This document shows, one piece after another, positions 31,147 through 41,078 of a stretch of DNA of 41,078 nt. This DNA comes from a virus. Every line of letters starts with the position of its first letter. The first letter of the stretch is position 1. The DNA is taken from positions 1 to 41,078 of the IMG/VR virus record IMGVR_UViG_3300014497_000005; one strand, 5' to 3'. A program made the position numbers and the translations under genes. The notes under the pieces are model-generated. The model saw only the letters and a list, made by a program, of their open reading frames with translations, ran no database searches and was not told where the DNA came from.

Positions 31147-31318
31147 CTACTTTCTCCTTTTGTTTCTTCGCAGCATCCAATGAATCCATCATCCCAGAAG
31201 CTGTTACCTGCTGGATGAACCCGCGATTTTCTAGAATCTGAATGAGCGCACGCATGGTCGTTGTTAAGGTTTCAATCTGAGCCACGATCTTATTTAAGTT
31301 TGGTTTCCTTTGAGTCAT
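31139..31318 (-). CDS. 59-residue hypothetical helical protein
   Basis: ATG 31318 overlaps the TGA of the methyltransferase gene. The product (MTQRKPNLNKIVAQIETLTT, then TMRALIQILENRGFIQQV) is a single amphipathic, possibly coiled-coil protein with a Lys-rich end (DAAKKQKEKVDE). Its stop overlaps the ribosome site and start of the lipoprotein gene. Function unknown; the location before the terminase small subunit gene hints at a packaging-related or modification-related role. Confidence 0.55.
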   Translation of the reverse strand: MTQRKPNLNKIVAQIETLTTTMRALIQILENRGFIQQVTASGMMDSLDAAKKQKEKVDE

Positions 31319-32652
31319 CCTTCCATCCTCGCGTTTGCAATAGCCACATAGTCAGCTTCTTTTTCTATTCCGATGAATCTGAATCCCAGTTTTTTAGCAG
31401 CAACACCTGTTGATCCGCTTCCAGCGAATGGATCTAAGACTAGTCCACCAGGAGGAGTGATCAGACGGATGAGGTATTGCATGAGTTTGGTACTTTTGAC
31501 CGTTGGATGGACGTTGCCTTCACCTTTGTCAGATCGGGAAGCTTTAGCCACATAAAAGAAGCGGGAGGCTCCGCCTGAGTCTCCGTAATTCATTAAAGCT
31601 TTGGATCTATCAGGGCTTCCAGTAGCGATATGGCCTGTCGTTTTTCTTGGAGTGCCACCTATAGTGACTTTGCCTAACCCTTGTTTGATCCCACTCTGCT
31701 CATCCAGCATTGCGACGCTACAGCCAGGGGTGCACTCCCAAGCTGCTACGGTTTCCGTGCCGTCTCCGTTACCGTGAGATAGCTCATGACTGCCGATACC
31801 AAACATAGATTTATCAGGAGTTGTATTCCCGGAGCACTTACCGCTTCCATTCAGCTTCACCTTCTTAGTCCCCACCTCCACGCAATCGGGATTGTGGGAT
31901 AGGACTAGGTTGGCGGGGAAGCGGCCTTGGGGATGGGATTCAGCGCTACGCTCAATGTCCATTCCCCCGCCATGTATTTTACTTCCGCCTGTTCTTTCAT
32001 AAGAATATTTATCGGTAGTCCCAATGCGACTTTGATCAATATTCAACCCACCCACACCCCACTTCAGCACATTCGCGGCAACGGTCTTCTCGCTCAGCGG
32101 CTTGCGGATTAACCACCAGAATTCCGCGCTCGGCTTAAGCGCAGTTCCCCAGCCTTGCCATTGTTTGGCTTCGGGGGTTGCTGCTCCTCTTTTAAATTCC
32201 GGTCGCATCGGTGTTGGCCAGCTGGCATCATGGTCTAACTGTCGTTCCCTATAAGCTGGATTTTTCCCAATAATTTCCCCTTCCACTCCTGCCGCCTTAT
32301 CAATCGCCTTGCTGATATCCAGTGACTTAGGAAACCCACTCCCAAACAAATGTGTGACGACATCCCTTATCTCAAACCCAGCCTCCTCACAAGCCGTCGC
32401 AGTCCAGTGAGACGTGCGAGGAATTGCCCATACCAACCCATGAGCACCGGGCTTCAACACGCGTAAACACTCCCTCATGACTTCACTCATCCAGGAGATC
32501 CATTGCTTAGATCCGCCCTTGTCTGAGTCCCAGGATTTATTCATAAACGAAATTCCAGCTGGCGGATCCGTGATCAAGGAATCAACCGAATCAGATTCCA
32601 TCTCTCGAAGCTGTTCTAGACAGTCTGCGTGGAGGATTAAAGACGTGCTCAT
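31315..32652 (-). CDS. DNA methyltransferase (amino-MTase) with DPPA motif
   Basis: A 445-residue enzyme. The catalytic motif IV is TDPPAGISF near residue 28, with Ala in place of the usual Tyr/Trp/Phe. The SAM-binding motif I is DPFAGSGSTGVAA near residue 405, so the order is the beta type (IV before I). Between them lies a long target-recognition region with HLFGSGFPKSLDISKAIDKAAG and several His/Cys. Phages use such enzymes to protect DNA from host restriction or to mark packaging or regulation sites. No cognate restriction nuclease is present. It abuts the ParB-methylase gene. Confidence 0.82.
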   Translation of the reverse strand: MSTSLILHADCLEQLREMESDSVDSLITDPPAGISFMNKSWDSDKGGSKQWISWMSEVMRECLRVLKPGAHGLVWAIPRTSHWTATACEEAGFEIRDVVTHLFGSGFPKSLDISKAIDKAAGVEGEIIGKNPAYRERQLDHDASWPTPMRPEFKRGAATPEAKQWQGWGTALKPSAEFWWLIRKPLSEKTVAANVLKWGVGGLNIDQSRIGTTDKYSYERTGGSKIHGGGMDIERSAESHPQGRFPANLVLSHNPDCVEVGTKKVKLNGSGKCSGNTTPDKSMFGIGSHELSHGNGDGTETVAAWECTPGCSVAMLDEQSGIKQGLGKVTIGGTPRKTTGHIATGSPDRSKALMNYGDSGGASRFFYVAKASRSDKGEGNVHPTVKSTKLMQYLIRLITPPGGLVLDPFAGSGSTGVAAKKLGFRFIGIEKEADYVAIANARMEG

Positions 32653-33819
32653 TTATCCGCTCGCCTCCTGCTCACCCCGCGTATTCACGCCGTCCCTGGC
32701 CGCGGGATTTAAGAGCTGCGCTTTCTTACCTGTGAACTTCTCCCACCTGGCTATTATGACATCTACGTAGTGCGGATCTATCTCCATCATGAAACATCTG
32801 CGGTTGGTTTTTTCGCAGGCGATGAGAGTGGAGCCTGAGCCGCCGAAAGGTTCAAACAAAAGAGCCCTTGGCGGTGCCCATGACTCAATGACATCCTCAA
32901 CTAAACCTAAAAGCTTAGGGCAAGGGTGATCTCCAACGTCTGATTGCTGCTTTACTGCGTATTCAAATAGGTCTGTATTCCTTTTTTGATTAACTCCATA
33001 ACAAAGGAGAATTTCAAAAACGTTTAGATGTGCAATTGAAGCAGGACTCATCGCGTTTTTCTTCACCCAACAAGCCATCTTAAAATCGGCAAAACTAAAC
33101 CATAGACCAACGTTGTTGTTTCCAGGTGTCAGCACTATTGGACAATTCATAGTAGAGAGCGTCTGCCAAATTTCACGCATGAAATCAGCGTACTTTTCTC
33201 CACCTTTATCCTGATGTGAGCTATATTTAAATCCAACACCATACGGCGGATCAGTAAACACCATGTCCGCCTTCTCGCCATTCATCAGAAGTTCAACATC
33301 AGTGATAGAAGTAGAATCCCCACACATAAGGCGATGATTACCCAAAACATATAAATCTCCGGGCCTCGATATCGATTCCACGGAAACATTTGGAACCTCA
33401 TCCTCATCACATTGCGCCTCAAACTTCTCGGCAGGCTCTAGTACAAAATCCTCAATGCCCAACAGGTCAATGTCCAAATCAGGGCCAAGGTTAGCAATAT
33501 CGGAATTAATCCCAGAAAGATCCAACTCAGCCCAAGCGCCAATAGCGTTATCTGAAACACCGAACATGTACTCGGATTCATCGGATTCGAAATCTTGGTA
33601 AATGACTGGTACATCTTTCATCCCTAGTTTTTTGGCGGCTAATAACCTGCCGTGCCCGGCGGCAATATAACCGGATTGATTTGAAACAATAATTGGCACT
33701 CGAAAACCTTGAAATTCAATCAATCTGCAAAGCCTATCTATTTGCTCTTGACCGTGGTGGTTACGATTGCGGGGGTTGTTTTTTAGTTTATTTACATTAA
33801 CCCAAACGATGTCTTTCAA
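32653..33819 (-). CDS. ParB-like domain fused to a DNA methyltransferase
   Basis: A 388-residue protein in two parts. Residues 1-120 form a ParB/Srx-like domain with NPRNRNHHGQEQIDRLCRLIEFQGF and GHGRLLAAKKLG (residues 55-66). Residues 150-380 form an amino-methyltransferase with motif IV TDPPYGVGF (189-197) and motif I FEPFGGSGSTLIA (322-334). This fusion is well known in phages. Methylation of adenine or cytosine may block host restriction; the ParB-like part may be a CTP- or DNA-binding module. It overlaps the HNH gene by 23 bases. Confidence 0.87.
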   Translation of the reverse strand: MKDIVWVNVNKLKNNPRNRNHHGQEQIDRLCRLIEFQGFRVPIIVSNQSGYIAAGHGRLLAAKKLGMKDVPVIYQDFESDESEYMFGVSDNAIGAWAELDLSGINSDIANLGPDLDIDLLGIEDFVLEPAEKFEAQCDEDEVPNVSVESISRPGDLYVLGNHRLMCGDSTSITDVELLMNGEKADMVFTDPPYGVGFKYSSHQDKGGEKYADFMREIWQTLSTMNCPIVLTPGNNNVGLWFSFADFKMACWVKKNAMSPASIAHLNVFEILLCYGVNQKRNTDLFEYAVKQQSDVGDHPCPKLLGLVEDVIESWAPPRALLFEPFGGSGSTLIACEKTNRRCFMMEIDPHYVDVIIARWEKFTGKKAQLLNPAARDGVNTRGEQEASG

Positions 33820-36019: not shown

Positions 36020-36858
36020 TATCGCATCTCCAGGTAGCGGCCTTGCATGAATCCAAACCAGATAGGTTTGCCGACGTAGGTACCGCGCTTCCTAATTTTC
36101 CGAAACACAAGCTCACGATCCGTGGATTGGTACCTGCCCGATTCGATATCTTTGCTCTTAGGACGATTGAACAGGCAGACGTTGGCCGCTTCTTGGACAG
36201 CAGTGGAGCTGCCTTTGATGTCAAACTCACTCTCAACCCTGCCGTCCAAGGTCTTCCTAGGATGAACGACTAGGATGATATGCATCGGAAGCTTCTTAGC
36301 CAGGATCACAAACTCATGAATCGCGTTATCCATCTCGGCCTTCTCAAGCTGGGAGGAGACCACTTTGAGAAAGAAATTGAGATTATCCAAGATCGCAACC
36401 TTGCAGCCATACTCCTGCCACATGTATTTCAGGGTGTTGATCATCTCTTCGATCTCAACGCGGTTGTCATGGGTGGAGATCAAGATTGTTTTCTCAAATA
36501 GAGACTGGTTCTTTTCAGTTAGTTTTTTGATCTCATGATCAGCGAAGGAGTCGCCGGTGTTGAGATCCCTTTTCTCCAAAGCGGAGACCACCCGGACCAC
36601 GAAATCCACGTTCCCAGTTTCGACCGGGGCAACGAAGTGGTTTACGTCCATCCCTGCCAGCTGGGCCGAGAGATTTGCCAAAAACTGGGTCTTACCGGCA
36701 CCTGTCGGAGCGCAGAGCAGGGTTAACTCGTTAGGTCTTAGTCCTCCCACGAATTCAGTAAATCTAGGCCACCAAGGGAGAGGTACCCCTCTCGGAGGAG
36801 TGATTAGGTCCTTCGTCGCCATAGGCCATACTTCGGCGATAGTTCGGAAATTCAGCAT
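36019..36858 (-). CDS. DnaB-like replicative helicase / RecA-fold ATPase
   Basis: A 279-residue protein corresponding to the C-terminal motor domain only of DnaB-type helicases. Walker A is APTGAGKT (residues 50-57) preceded by the FVGGLRPNELTLLC strand typical of DnaB; Walker B is VAILDNLNFF with Asp158; then IILVVHP (194-200) and IKGSSTAVQEAANVCLFNRP follow, as in the DnaB sensor region. Lacking the N-terminal domain, it may act as a stand-alone hexameric helicase or need the host enzyme. It overlaps the initiator gene and is placed with it like lambda O-P or DnaC/helicase pairs. Confidence 0.8.
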   Translation of the reverse strand: MLNFRTIAEVWPMATKDLITPPRGVPLPWWPRFTEFVGGLRPNELTLLCAPTGAGKTQFLANLSAQLAGMDVNHFVAPVETGNVDFVVRVVSALEKRDLNTGDSFADHEIKKLTEKNQSLFEKTILISTHDNRVEIEEMINTLKYMWQEYGCKVAILDNLNFFLKVVSSQLEKAEMDNAIHEFVILAKKLPMHIILVVHPRKTLDGRVESEFDIKGSSTAVQEAANVCLFNRPKSKDIESGRYQSTDRELVFRKIRKRGTYVGKPIWFGFMQGRYLEMR

Positions 36859-37622
36859 AGGACCTCCCCCTCTACCTCGTGGAATTGACGCACCCTGGGT
36901 TGGTTCTGGGCTCCAAGATTGACGAAGGTCTCGAAGATGTCCGACTTGAAGAGTCTGAGGATACTGACGTGCTTGCTAGGATCGTAGGTAGGAGATCCTT
37001 CCTCGTATCTGGCACCGAGGAGGGCTAGCTTAGTCTTCTCGCATCCATTCCGGATGATGAGACTGGCTATGCTTGATTCGTCGAATCTAGGGTCTTTCTG
37101 GATTTTGTGGTGAGAGAGAGTTTTTCCCCATTCCTCGATGCATTGCTTTATTTCTTCTGGTAAGATCCTCGGAGTCTCTCTCTCTTCTTTTTTCTTATAT
37201 TCTTCTTTCTTATATTCTTTACTAAAGTGCAGTTCGTGTGCAGCTTGCGTGCAGTTTTCGTGCAGTTCGCGTTCAGTGTTTTCGTCTTGAGCCTGGTAAA
37301 CGCCCCACTGTAGCACCGAGACGAGCGTTCCCCGTGTGCAGCTTTCGACAGAAATTCGTCCGGTCTCTTCCAGGTACTTTAACCACCGTTTTATTGTGTT
37401 CTTTGAGCACCCCCACTTGTTCGCAAGCTCCCCTAAACCCATGACGACGGTGCCCGGTAGGATCTCTCTTTGCTTACCTTTCCAGAGAATCTTAGTCGGC
37501 TTCCATATGGCTGACAGGAGGAGCCAATTCCAAATCCCCCATAACCAAACGTTGTCTGGCAGGTCTTCGTCCAGGGAATCTCTCCATGCTTTGACCCAGC
37601 CTTTTGTAAATCTCTTTGTCAC
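36852..37622 (-). CDS. Replication initiator (winged-helix) carrying the origin
   Basis: A 256-residue protein from GTG 37622 (GGGGGATAAG upstream). Residues 50-125 form a winged helix: LPGTVVMGLGELANKWGCSKNTIKRWLKYLEETGRISVES, as in phage O-type/DnaD-like initiators. A highly charged linker (residues 117-150) is encoded by DNA that contains the 11-bp iterons and the AT-rich repeats. The C-terminal part (PEEIKQCIEEWGKTL...) is helical and resembles the domain that binds the helicase. The pair with the RecA-fold helicase defines the replication module. Confidence 0.8.
   Translation of the reverse strand: MTKRFTKGWVKAWRDSLDEDLPDNVWLWGIWNWLLLSAIWKPTKILWKGKQREILPGTVVMGLGELANKWGCSKNTIKRWLKYLEETGRISVESCTRGTLVSVLQWGVYQAQDENTERELHENCTQAAHELHFSKEYKKEEYKKKEERETPRILPEEIKQCIEEWGKTLSHHKIQKDPRFDESSIASLIIRNGCEKTKLALLGARYEEGSPTYDPSKHVSILRLFKSDIFETFVNLGAQNQPRVRQFHEVEGEVLC
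37191..37281. other. Predicted replication origin: five 11-bp iterons and two AT-rich 15-bp repeats
   Basis: GTGCAG starts at 37227, 37238, 37249 and 37260, and the variant GTTCAG at 37271: five units with an exact 11-bp period, i.e. one face of the helix. Next to them TTTCTTATATTCTT occurs at 37191-37204 and 37206-37219, AT-rich tandem repeats like those opened first at lambda or oriC origins. The iterons lie inside the initiator gene, as in lambda O. Confidence 0.75.
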
Positions 37623-37796: not shown

Positions 37797-38139
37797 TGAG
37801 TTTGATTGATTAATGCCTAGTTTTAGATGCGAAGTGTAATTTTCGACTAATGTTGACTTTATGTTGACTTTTTAAATGAAGATTTCAAAAACACGCGAAA
37901 ACACGAGCTTTTTTTCGCCCTTAGCACGACTCAAAATCGTGTATCCTTACGGGTGTCCGAGTTCGACTCTCGGAGGAGCCACCATTAAAAACCTCAAAAA
38001 AACCCTGAAAAATCGCATAAAATCAAAGGCTTAGCCTAATGCAGGCAGTCGAAATAAATATTTTCAAACTGGGTTCTGTACGCTGAGTTTGATTGATTTT
38101 GATCATTTTTTGCCAAAATTGTTGACTTGGATGTTGACT
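37797..38139. other. attP: Predicted attP: tRNA-Leu 3' half flanked by paired arm sites
   Basis: Bases 37925-37984 match the 3' part of a tRNA-Leu: anticodon stem CACGA/TCGTG with loop CTCAAAA (anticodon CAA at 37932-37934), a class II variable arm, T stem CCGAG/CTCGG with loop TTCGACT, acceptor strand AGGAGCC, A and CCA. There is no 5' half, so it is a core shared with a host gene. TGTTGACT repeats flank it on both sides: 37851-37858 and 37862-37869, then 38120-38127 and 38132-38139, plus TGAGTTTGATTGATT at 37797-37811 and 38084-38098. The integrase gene follows directly. Confidence 0.85.
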
Positions 38140-38160: not shown

Positions 38161-38197
38161 AAAAAACCCGCTTCTGGGAGGCTCCAAAAGCGGGTTT
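38161..38197 (-). terminator. Intrinsic terminator of the integrase gene
   Basis: AAACCCGCTT (38164-38173) pairs perfectly with AAGCGGGTTT (38188-38197). On the minus strand the stem is followed by T residues (complement of 38161-38166), 30 bp after the integrase stop. Confidence 0.88.
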
Positions 38198-38227: not shown

Positions 38228-39346
38228 TTAATCGACTGTTTGAATCAATTTTAGATGGGACCTTTTCTTAGTCAAACCAACTAGAGTTCCGATGTTGTCC
38301 AATCGTTCGGGAACTTCGTGATCATAGATGCGAGTGGTCGCATCGTCGCTATGATTGTAGAGTTCGCGCAGGTCGCTTCTATGGGCACCTGCTTCTTTCC
38401 ATAATCCCGACGTCGTGTGCCTCAATCCATGAGGAGTAAGGAGCGGGAAGTTATGCTTGGCACAAAGGGCCTTTAGAGCCTTCTGGATGGTATGGTACGA
38501 TGCCATCTCACCTGGTTGCTGACACCGTTGGACTACCCAGTCCGTTGGCCTCGCTAAGGGTGATAGCTTCCTTTGCAAGTACTCAGCAAGGTCAGAAGCA
38601 ATCGGAATAGGGGTTTCAGCTCGTTTATTTTTGACGGGAGAGATCTTCTTTCCTTTACGATTCCACTGTCTACGCAAAGTTAACTTCCTAGTTACCAAAT
38701 CAAGATCTCCATGTTGCAACCCAATCAACTCGCAGACTCGAAGGCCGGTACCAACCATGATCCAAATGGAGGGTCCCAACCAATGATCAGAAACTGTTTC
38801 TAAAAACTGGCGAGCTAAATCTGGCCCAAGATACGTTGGAACCTTCTTTTGTACAGTAGGTTTGAATTTCTTTATCACTGGATTGAAATCTCTAACTTCA
38901 GAGATATCGACTGCATATTCAAAAATCGAGTGAAGCAGAATATAGATATGCCGAACCATTCCTGGAGCCAAGCCTTTTACTTCCCTGAGTTCCGCAAGAA
39001 GTTTAGCAATATCCCTTTTTTGAATTTCCACCAAGACTGCTTTGCCAAGATAGGGTTCAATATGGTTCTTGAACATTCTATCCTGTTCTGAACGCCAGCC
39101 CTCATTTACCTTTGGTCGGCCCTGAATTTTCCAGGTTTGGTGGTAATACTCTGACAGAGTTACCCCTCGAAATTCAGTTTGAATCGCTGTTTGCCCCTTT
39201 GCCTTTTGAGCGAGCAAAGATCCTTCATAAACTTTTGCATCTTCTTTTCTGCTGAATTGCTTTGACGGATACCATCCGCCTTGTGGATCTCGTACTTGAA
39301 CAATATAAGCAAACCCGGACTTTAACTTTCTTCTAGTAACAGCCAT
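38228..39346 (-). CDS. int: Tyrosine recombinase (integrase)
   Basis: A 372-residue enzyme. An N-terminal AP2/arm-binding-like part (residues 1-60) and the SAM-like core-binding domain (60-165) precede the catalytic domain with R203 (GTGLRVCEL), K239-K241 region, H306 and R309 (HGLRH), H332 (NHS, usually GHS) and nucleophile Tyr341 (TTRIYDH). All key residues are present. It would catalyse integration at a host tRNA-Leu gene through the attP located just downstream, and excision with the HTH protein at 39387. GAGGG lies eight bases before ATG 39346. Confidence 0.95.
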   Translation of the reverse strand: MAVTRRKLKSGFAYIVQVRDPQGGWYPSKQFSRKEDAKVYEGSLLAQKAKGQTAIQTEFRGVTLSEYYHQTWKIQGRPKVNEGWRSEQDRMFKNHIEPYLGKAVLVEIQKRDIAKLLAELREVKGLAPGMVRHIYILLHSIFEYAVDISEVRDFNPVIKKFKPTVQKKVPTYLGPDLARQFLETVSDHWLGPSIWIMVGTGLRVCELIGLQHGDLDLVTRKLTLRRQWNRKGKKISPVKNKRAETPIPIASDLAEYLQRKLSPLARPTDWVVQRCQQPGEMASYHTIQKALKALCAKHNFPLLTPHGLRHTTSGLWKEAGAHRSDLRELYNHSDDATTRIYDHEVPERLDNIGTLVGLTKKRSHLKLIQTVD

Positions 39347-39729: not shown

Positions 39730-39911
39730 TTGTTCTCTTCCTTAAAACTATTGCTGTTTCTCTCTTCTTCTCTTCTACGACACCCTCGACACATTCGAGG
39801 TTCTTCACAATCCCTCCAACAGGGCACCGACGACGCATCCATGCAGTCGGTGCAGAGGCAGTAGGATTGTTCATTTAGTTTCTTTCGACTAAAGATGCTA
39901 ATGACGTTCAT
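39726..39911 (-). CDS. Small Cys-rich (zinc-binding) protein
   Basis: A 61-residue protein: MNVISIFSRKKLNEQSYCLCTDCMDASSVPCWRDCEEPRMCRGCRRREEE. Nine cysteines in about 35 residues form two CxxC-type clusters, probably zinc-binding. It overlaps the exonuclease stop by one base and lies in the early recombination operon. Possibly a small regulator or host-takeover factor; no family assigned. Confidence 0.6.
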   Translation of the reverse strand: MNVISIFSRKKLNEQSYCLCTDCMDASSVPCWRDCEEPRMCRGCRRREEERNSNSFKEENN

Positions 39912-40765
39912 TACTCAACCGCTTCTTTGATCCTGACATCAAGATAGGTCGAAGCTTTCTTTCGGTAAGGTTCTAGATCCAACCCCTTCAACACTGGAAT
40001 CTTAGAATAGTCGATTGATCCCTTCCTGGTGATCGGCATTACCTGAACGCCATTGCATCGAATCCGAGCACCATTTGCTGCGGTTGCAATCTGTTTTTTG
40101 ACTGCCTGGAAGGCCTCCTCAATGGTAGCCAGTTGAGAATAAAGTAACCGGTATCGTCCGCATAATGCTTCAAACGTAGGATCCTTAATTGTTTTGAAGT
40201 CACGTGGACCCAACTCAGGAGGCGTGTCCTTCTGGATCAGCTCCCAGAAAGCGAACTCCTCCTTCATCAGTTTCTCTTGGAACTCAGAATCAGGAGTAAC
40301 GGGAACAATGACACCCTTCTCACCATCAAAGGAAAAGTAGTCCACCTGCTTAGCTCCAGTTACCAAGAGCTGGTGTTGAAGCTGAGCCATGTACACTTCA
40401 GGAACTTGGCCTTCCATGGCTGTTTGATGGTCTTCTTTTCCCGGACATTTGATCTCAAGGATCCGTCCTGCTTCCGCGTTGTATCCATCCAAAGAGGCCC
40501 TCAAGAATGAATGTTCAGGATGAATTACAAGAGTGGGTTTCATATCGAGATCACAGAGGAGCTCGTAATGAGCCCGCGCCTTGGGTTCTAACCGATTACC
40601 TCGCTCCATTGCCCAGTTGGTAACCTGTTCTGGAGCCCTTCCCGTTTTCAGTTCCCAAAGCTGATAGCGGGTCATCCACTTGGACAACCCAAGTATTGCG
40701 GGAGCATCGGAGCTTCCGATTCCCTGCTTTCTCCATTCCAACCAATTATTTGATCCTTGTTCCAT
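39911..40765 (-). CDS. YqaJ/lambda-Exo-type exonuclease
   Basis: A 284-residue nuclease of the lambda exonuclease-like family. IGSSDAPAILGLSKW (residues 16-30) is the conserved N-terminal helix segment; ERGNRLEP (54-61) follows; the metal-binding residues are Asp93 (ASLDGY), Glu104 and Lys106 (LEIKCPG). It should resect double-stranded DNA ends 5' to 3' and work with the ssDNA-binding-like and Sak4-like proteins encoded next to it. The coding order is exonuclease, then further small genes, integrase. It can start at ATG 40765. Confidence 0.88.
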   Translation of the reverse strand: MEQGSNNWLEWRKQGIGSSDAPAILGLSKWMTRYQLWELKTGRAPEQVTNWAMERGNRLEPKARAHYELLCDLDMKPTLVIHPEHSFLRASLDGYNAEAGRILEIKCPGKEDHQTAMEGQVPEVYMAQLQHQLLVTGAKQVDYFSFDGEKGVIVPVTPDSEFQEKLMKEEFAFWELIQKDTPPELGPRDFKTIKDPTFEALCGRYRLLYSQLATIEEAFQAVKKQIATAANGARIRCNGVQVMPITRKGSIDYSKIPVLKGLDLEPYRKKASTYLDVRIKEAVE

Positions 40766-40777
40766 ACTTCCCCCTAA

Positions 40778-41078
40778 TTAAAACGGTAAATCATCATGAG
40801 GTGCAGTATCAGTTGGTGGTTTATGTGTGTTCGTGATTCCTGTTTGTTGACGTCTGAACTTGACATCACCTTTGAGATTTAATGCTCCTAACTTAATCCG
40901 AGCATCCTGAAACGATAGTTTATCGCGGAAAGCAGCGCCTCCAGGAATGTTGATCCACCTGATCTTAGACCTGACTTTCCCTTTATCGTCAGTCTCCTCC
41001 TCGATCGTAAGCTGAACATCGCGTTCCTCATCGAGGGCACAACCTTGGGGCCCGTTTGCCAAACTTTCGATTTCATCC
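40778..41078 (-). CDS. ssDNA-binding-like protein, C-terminal part (wraps to 1-344)
   Basis: This is the second piece of the gene described at 1-344; bases 40956-41078 duplicate 1-123. It encodes the part from ANGPQGCALDEERDVQLTIEEE through WINIPGGAAFRDKLSFQDARI to the terminal DDLPF, stop at 40778-40780. The frame agrees exactly with the 1-344 segment once the repeat is merged, confirming circularity. AAGGGGGTAGAT before ATG 344 is the true start signal. Confidence 0.8.
   Translation of the reverse strand, partial: DEIESLANGPQGCALDEERDVQLTIEEETDDKGKVRSKIRWINIPGGAAFRDKLSFQDARIKLGALNLKGDVKFRRQQTGITNTHKPPTDTAPHDDLPF

Follow-up and report, generated by a model that had tools for sequence, protein, structure and literature searches.

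The locus considered here raises the question of whether a short tandem repeat lying inside a protein-coding gene of a virus is a replication origin, that is, whether the same DNA encodes part of a protein and carries the site that this protein reads. The window, by which we mean the whole stretch of 41,078 nucleotides that was analysed, is a 41-kb virus record in which genes for an integrase, an excisionase-like protein, RecE-like and Sak4-like recombination proteins, a repressor, a terminase and head proteins were recognised, and the virus is a temperate phage. The first-pass annotation, made from the letters alone, had described iterons and an AT-rich box embedded in an initiator gene. This is still the best reading, with relatives of the gene keeping an array at the same place, and the array is very probably a phage replication origin situated within the gene of its own initiator and read by the encoded protein (Table 1).

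Table 1. Positions of the candidate origin, its initiator gene and the adjoining helicase gene in the window.
Feature	Position	Strand	Basis or remark
Initiator/DnaD-like helicase loader gene, 256 aa, GTG start	36852..37622	minus	PHROG profile matches
Winged-helix domain, residues 7-114, presumed iteron reader	37281..37604	minus	Family profile match, AlphaFold2
Helix-turn-helix (HTH): alpha2, residues 63-70; recognition helix alpha3, residues 74-86	37365..37436	minus	DSSP on model
Sixth exact CTGCAC	37336..37341	minus	Inside winged-helix coding region
Iteron array, five contiguous 11-bp units: ACTGAACGCGA ACTGCACGAAA ACTGCACGCAA GCTGCACACGA ACTGCACTTTA	37277 down to 37223	minus	
AT-rich DNA unwinding element candidate, two 15-bp repeats	37187..37226	minus	Low duplex stability
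AAGAATATAAGAA, AAGAAT motif copy 1	37207..37219	minus	Codon frame Glu-Tyr, not Lys-Asn
AAGAATATAAGAA, AAGAAT motif copy 2	37192..37204	minus	Codon frame Glu-Tyr, not Lys-Asn
RecA-fold/DnaB_C-type replicative helicase gene, 279 aa	36019..36858	minus	Pfam DnaB_C E 1.6e-15; phrog_239 primase/helicase 8.3e-36

The protein encoded by the initiator gene matches the PHROG profiles phrog_2514 (DnaD-like helicase loader, E 1.7e-26), phrog_7498 (2.8e-13) and phrog_186 (2.7e-10), the first of these matches covering residues 7-152 and including the N-terminal winged helix. In the AlphaFold2 model, the order of helices and strands is that of a winged helix, with pLDDT values above 90 for about residues 21-110, and confidence is low for residues 111-151, the stretch encoded by the iterons and the AT-rich repeats. 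The protein is better named an initiator/helicase loader of the DnaD-like PHROG family. Residues 152-256 gave no Pfam match, including none to a helicase-loading domain of the DnaD/DnaB_2 type; DnaB_2 was found in 7 of 50 family members examined and is therefore not a constant feature of the family. There was also no Pfam match, up to E 1, to the Rep_3 and RepA_N domains of plasmid-type Rep iteron origins. A PDB sequence search with the initiator returned nothing, and Foldseek returned generic winged-helix regulators only (MarR/ArsR type), none of them at E <= 0.001. The next gene, which overlaps the end of the initiator gene, encodes a DnaB_C-type protein that is presumed to be the helicase recruited to the candidate origin.

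The five units of the array follow the minus-strand consensus RCTGMACGMRA and span nt 346-400 of the initiator gene. Four of them share an identical CTGCAC core, with CTGAAC in the first unit in minus-strand order, so that the plus strand carries exact GTGCAG at 37227, 37238, 37249 and 37260, and the unit at 37271 reads GTTCAG, with one mismatch and a spacing of exactly 11 bp. Of the five GTGCAG units with an exact 11-bp period originally claimed, the spacing and four exact copies stand, and the fifth is degenerate. A further GTGCAG, at 37336, lies 76 bp off the array, does not keep the 11-bp register and may be a chance occurrence. An Rfam search gave no match.

Markov simulation of the entire window, run 40 times, gave chains of at most three identical hexamers spaced at 11 bp, as against four observed. 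When the gene was recoded synonymously 3000 times, the lag-11 match never exceeded 31, below the observed 33/44; a chain of four hexamers appeared in 2 of 20000 local recodings of this type, and codon permutation within the gene gave p = 0.005 for the periodicity, which is the floor of 200 permutations. Because no synonymous recoding attains the observed 11-bp periodicity, selection acts on the DNA of the array itself, beyond the peptide.

Adjoining the iterons are two copies of a 15-bp AT-rich repeat (37191-37205 and 37206-37220), which had been reported as two tandem repeats of 14/15 bp; they are present where they had been placed, with the length now corrected to 15 bp in both. The 40 bp that hold them (37187-37226) form the third least stable segment of this length in the window and the least stable within ORFs taken as genes. 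For the window's gene taken alone, the two AAGAAT copies within these repeats are not significant (P 0.14). The position of the origin cannot be read from GC skew, because nearly all genes point one way: the cumulative skew falls monotonically across the window and is dominated by the coding strand, and the skew at third codon positions stays close to zero over most of the genome. A single DnaA box match occurs in the 41 kb, 10 kb away, which is fewer than expected by chance, and a DnaA-type origin is thus not indicated.

Close relatives of the initiator were found in neither viral nor genome collections, and the comparison of its conservation rests on distant relatives with about 20-30% protein identity. 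The initiators of the terminase relatives are not clearly related to that of the window, and nine distant members, once aligned, yielded no usable search pattern. In nine annotated phage relatives, an array stands directly behind the winged helix, with a period of 11 or 12 bp in nearly all and an A-rich tract thereafter, and the array sequences differ among them. Scans of the viral and genome collections with winged-helix alignments fetched several hundred loci and, since protein patterns of the winged helix alone were used, without bias towards arrays. In a first non-redundant set, significant out-of-frame periodicity was observed in 30 of 64 genes versus 3 of 106 neighbouring control genes; 29 of the 30 had a period of 11, which occurred in no control, and 29 had the array directly behind the winged helix. 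An enlarged set of 162 non-redundant relatives from several phyla contained 93 significant out-of-frame arrays (p <= 0.05); the period is 11 in 92 of these, and all 93 lie within -20 to +90 nt of the end of the winged helix. Most of the remaining members have a period of 12, which accounts in part for the approximately 43% of members that lack a significant out-of-frame array.

Furthermore, the mean lag spectrum peaks at 11, 12, 22 and 24 only behind the winged helix and is flat both in the winged helix and in the C-terminal part. Periods of 10 and 13 are essentially absent from the family, and the dominance of 11 and 12 suggests that adjacent copies of the protein are set a constant step apart. 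On the winged-helix tree, the two period classes are clustered, yet at least five changes between them fall on well-supported branches. A lack of conservation of the repeats in relatives at synonymous positions had been named in the first-pass annotation as grounds for refuting the proposal, and the outcome is in its favour: the relatives keep an 11-/12-bp array at the same place, far in excess of the demands of their proteins, with a different iteron sequence. The lambda-like intragenic arrangement is the rule in this family and is not exceptional.

The AT-rich tract behind the iterons is likewise marked across the family by a DNA motif, AAGAAT(G), which mostly falls on Lys-Asn codons and occurs in other frames too. 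In the family tract, AAGAAT is present in 318 copies, in comparison with 96 under a null of synonymous permutation (maximum 115), and Lys-Asn is spelled AAGAAT in 272 of 330 cases there versus 28 of 194 elsewhere. Copies outside the Lys-Asn frame, to which both copies in the window belong, are also in excess in the family tract (46 versus 22.7, maximum 31).

Which part of the protein reads the iterons was addressed through covariation, using partial Mantel tests, from which shared ancestry is not fully removed. The partial correlation between iteron similarity and HTH-block similarity, corrected for the rest of the domain, is 0.23 for the 11-bp class (n=81) and 0.39 for the 12-bp class (n=34), and the HTH block ranks above the others whether all pairs, close pairs or far pairs are taken. 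A sliding-window scan of the first set placed the peak on the HTH in both period classes, and window scanning gave a permutation P of 0.003 in each class. In held-out 12-bp loci the peak fell again on the HTH (n=18, P 0.047), and in held-out 11-bp loci (n=57) it fell at GTVVMGLGELAN (r 0.25), in a segment that precedes and overlaps the first HTH helix, with about 0.07 for the recognition helix. Taken as a pattern in sequences, this makes a good but not conclusive case that the winged helix binds the array.

The array might owe its existence to the protein, in that a repeated linker peptide could act as a flexible or charged spacer with the DNA periodicity as a by-product; the peptide ELHENCTQAAH... 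does recur every 11 residues, in a region that the model gives as a linker of low confidence. Such a repeat would need a period of 33 bp and not 11, however, the period is destroyed by synonymous recoding, and relatives with unrelated peptides (TTNGQQINNKS, QVSIDCPSSVHQVST, TTEQQLNT) still keep 11 bp. As 11 is not divisible by three, the reading frame changes from each unit to the next (LH, NCT, AAH); a selected protein repeat therefore cannot explain the array, and we consider this account very improbable. Slippage, which would have left a young and functionless tandem duplication, is a known source of tandem repeats, and GTGCAG arrays of 11 bp occur elsewhere, but the units differ from one another outside a preserved CTGMAC core, and both position and period are common to distant relatives, so that a functionless duplication is scarcely credible.

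A winged helix and iterons would also provide the binding logic for an operator (autoregulation), for a partition or incompatibility site or for a replication-brake site, and iterons serve control in other iteron systems. That the array is a site of this kind and not a start site is nevertheless unlikely, as about 345 nt of the gene precede the array, which is not at a promoter, and as it is coupled in the family to an AT-rich AAGAAT tract that a simple operator does not need; in the window, moreover, a helicase gene lies downstream.

If the array is indeed an origin within its initiator's gene, copies of the 256-aa protein would bind the five iterons through their winged helices, one per unit, and, 11 bp being about one turn, the bound copies would lie nearly on one face of the helix. 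This row of proteins would strain the adjoining AT-rich repeats and cause them to melt, and the C-terminal part of the initiator would then deliver the product of the adjoining helicase gene to the single strand. We infer the steps of binding, melting, helicase loading and origin firing from this anatomy and from the cases of lambda, Stx phages, TP901-1 and Tuc2009. The linker between the two halves of the protein is of low complexity, and for this reason the gene can hold DNA signals there, the peptide ELHENCTQAAHELH-KEYKKEEYKKKE being largely dictated by the iteron and AT-rich signals.

The arrangement is already known in kind from lambda O, TP901-1 and Tuc2009. In lambda and Stx phages, the repeats inside initiator gene O are a proven origin (PMC7466680), and direct repeats inside the initiator genes of TP901-1 and Tuc2009 have been shown to be the origin (PMC8965321). 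The mapped lambda iterons likewise lie behind the DNA-binding half and begin at almost the same point of the gene (nt 349-433 of O versus 346-400 here; PMC7466680) and are likewise followed by an AT-rich element and then by a replication gene, which in lambda encodes the helicase loader P and here the helicase. In contrast, lambda has four iterons of 18 bp at a spacing of 20-24 bp, whereas those of the window are 11 bp long and contiguous; the iteron sequence had correctly been described as different from that of lambda, and the difference extends to the length and spacing of the units. Homology between the DNA-binding half and lambda O was rejected (a probability of 0.2 in hhalign, an E value of 8 in BLASTP and a negative score with the family profile), and the impression of a genome unrelated to lambda holds for this half, for which the family profile has no match to lambda O. 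Weak matches of the initiator to other O-like PHROGs were observed (391 at 0.001 and 345 at 0.02). Lambda O and phrog_2514 do match in the C-terminal part of the latter, an indication that these halves are exchanged around an origin of constant position.

The lactococcal replisome organizers TP901-1 ORF13 and Tuc2009 Rep are likewise encoded by DnaD-like helicase loader genes with internal repeats, but their N-terminal domains do not match the profile of the window's family, their strongest repeat period is 15 bp, and AAGAAT is absent from the repeat region. Loaders of phrog_2514 in Shewanella phage 3/49, Staphylococcus phage SAP33 and Lactobacillus phage Lc-Nu have the same winged helix with an 11-/12-bp array right behind it, and differ in iteron sequence and in their C-terminal halves (DnaB_2, Phg_2220_C and others). 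For Francisella phage KIRK, iterons in an AT-rich part of the replication gene ORF43, which encodes a Phg_2220_C protein, have been described as a putative origin (PMC7924643); this origin is a prediction, and is likened to that of the window by its description. Among the relatives retrieved here, L017, L024, L179 and others share the winged helix and differ in their C-terminal halves; the two parts appear to be joined at the iteron linker, and replication modules may be exchanged by recombination at the origin.

Contigs with other GTGCAG arrays of 11 bp were considered as support and set aside, as the array in most of them is of another kind and does not lie within an initiator gene of the window's family. 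In a different phage group (L002, L005, L007, L009, L010, L012 and L014), apparently intergenic 11-bp arrays of 4-5 copies of ACTGCACCACA are followed by about 30-40 bp of AT-rich DNA and then by inverted copies, GTGGTGCAGTGGTGCAG, an arrangement suggestive of a further iteron origin whose core is similar; in L010 the array adjoins an ORF of 1024 aa, possibly a primase gene. In L004, a replication-protein gene has four CTGCAC at 11 bp (604-643), coding AQTLHSSCTPSA and followed by a G/A-rich tract. This protein may be DUF4373-like, and the locus looks like the same design in a different protein family.

Elsewhere in the window, between the integrase gene (38228-39346) and the initiator, a core resembling a tRNA 3' end (GTCCGAGTTCGACTCTCGGAGGAGCCACCA, 37950-37985) is accompanied by TGTTGACTT/GTTGACT repeats at 37851, 37862, 38120 and 38133. 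This is a probable attP, in which the GTTGACT repeats on both sides of the core are likely integrase arm sites; a full tRNA was not found, and there was no Rfam match. Just behind the integrase gene, a strong terminator-like hairpin on the minus strand (38164-38197; 14-bp stem, T tail) separates this gene from the attP candidate and the initiator. A fusion of a ParB-N domain with an N6/N4 DNA methyltransferase is encoded at 32653-33819 (minus strand) and is followed by a second methyltransferase ORF (31315-32652), the matching parts of which are split over the protein. The Sak4-like gene at the left end (355-1350) and the RecE-like gene at the right end (39911-41062) point in the same direction, as would the parts of a single recombination operon interrupted by the ends of the contig; the genome is probably circularly permuted, and a search for terminal repeats of 10-59 bp found none.

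Considered over the family as a whole, the DnaD-like winged-helix initiators of phages from several bacterial phyla may share a single origin cassette that is independent of reading frame, with iterons of 11/12 bp, AAGAAT(G) as a second sequence-specific element of the unwinding region in any frame that the gene permits, and co-evolution of iteron and HTH, a generalization that we hold tentatively, with doubt slightly outweighing belief. The literature searched, the coverage of which is incomplete, contained no description of an 11/12-bp rule over several phyla, of a frame-free AAGAAT element or of HTH-iteron covariation. Such a cassette, with iterons locked to exactly 11 or 12 bp, would imply a head-to-tail row of initiators with a fixed step, and would allow origins to be predicted from the protein, and vice versa. 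Mapped phage origins are rare, and the rule of an 11-/12-bp array behind the winged helix of a DnaD-like loader, followed by an AAGAAT tract, would point to origins in hundreds of uncultured phages. As the iterons would change together with their reader, specificity and its evolution become directly testable, in what is a clear case from nature of the same DNA acting at once as protein code and replication signal.
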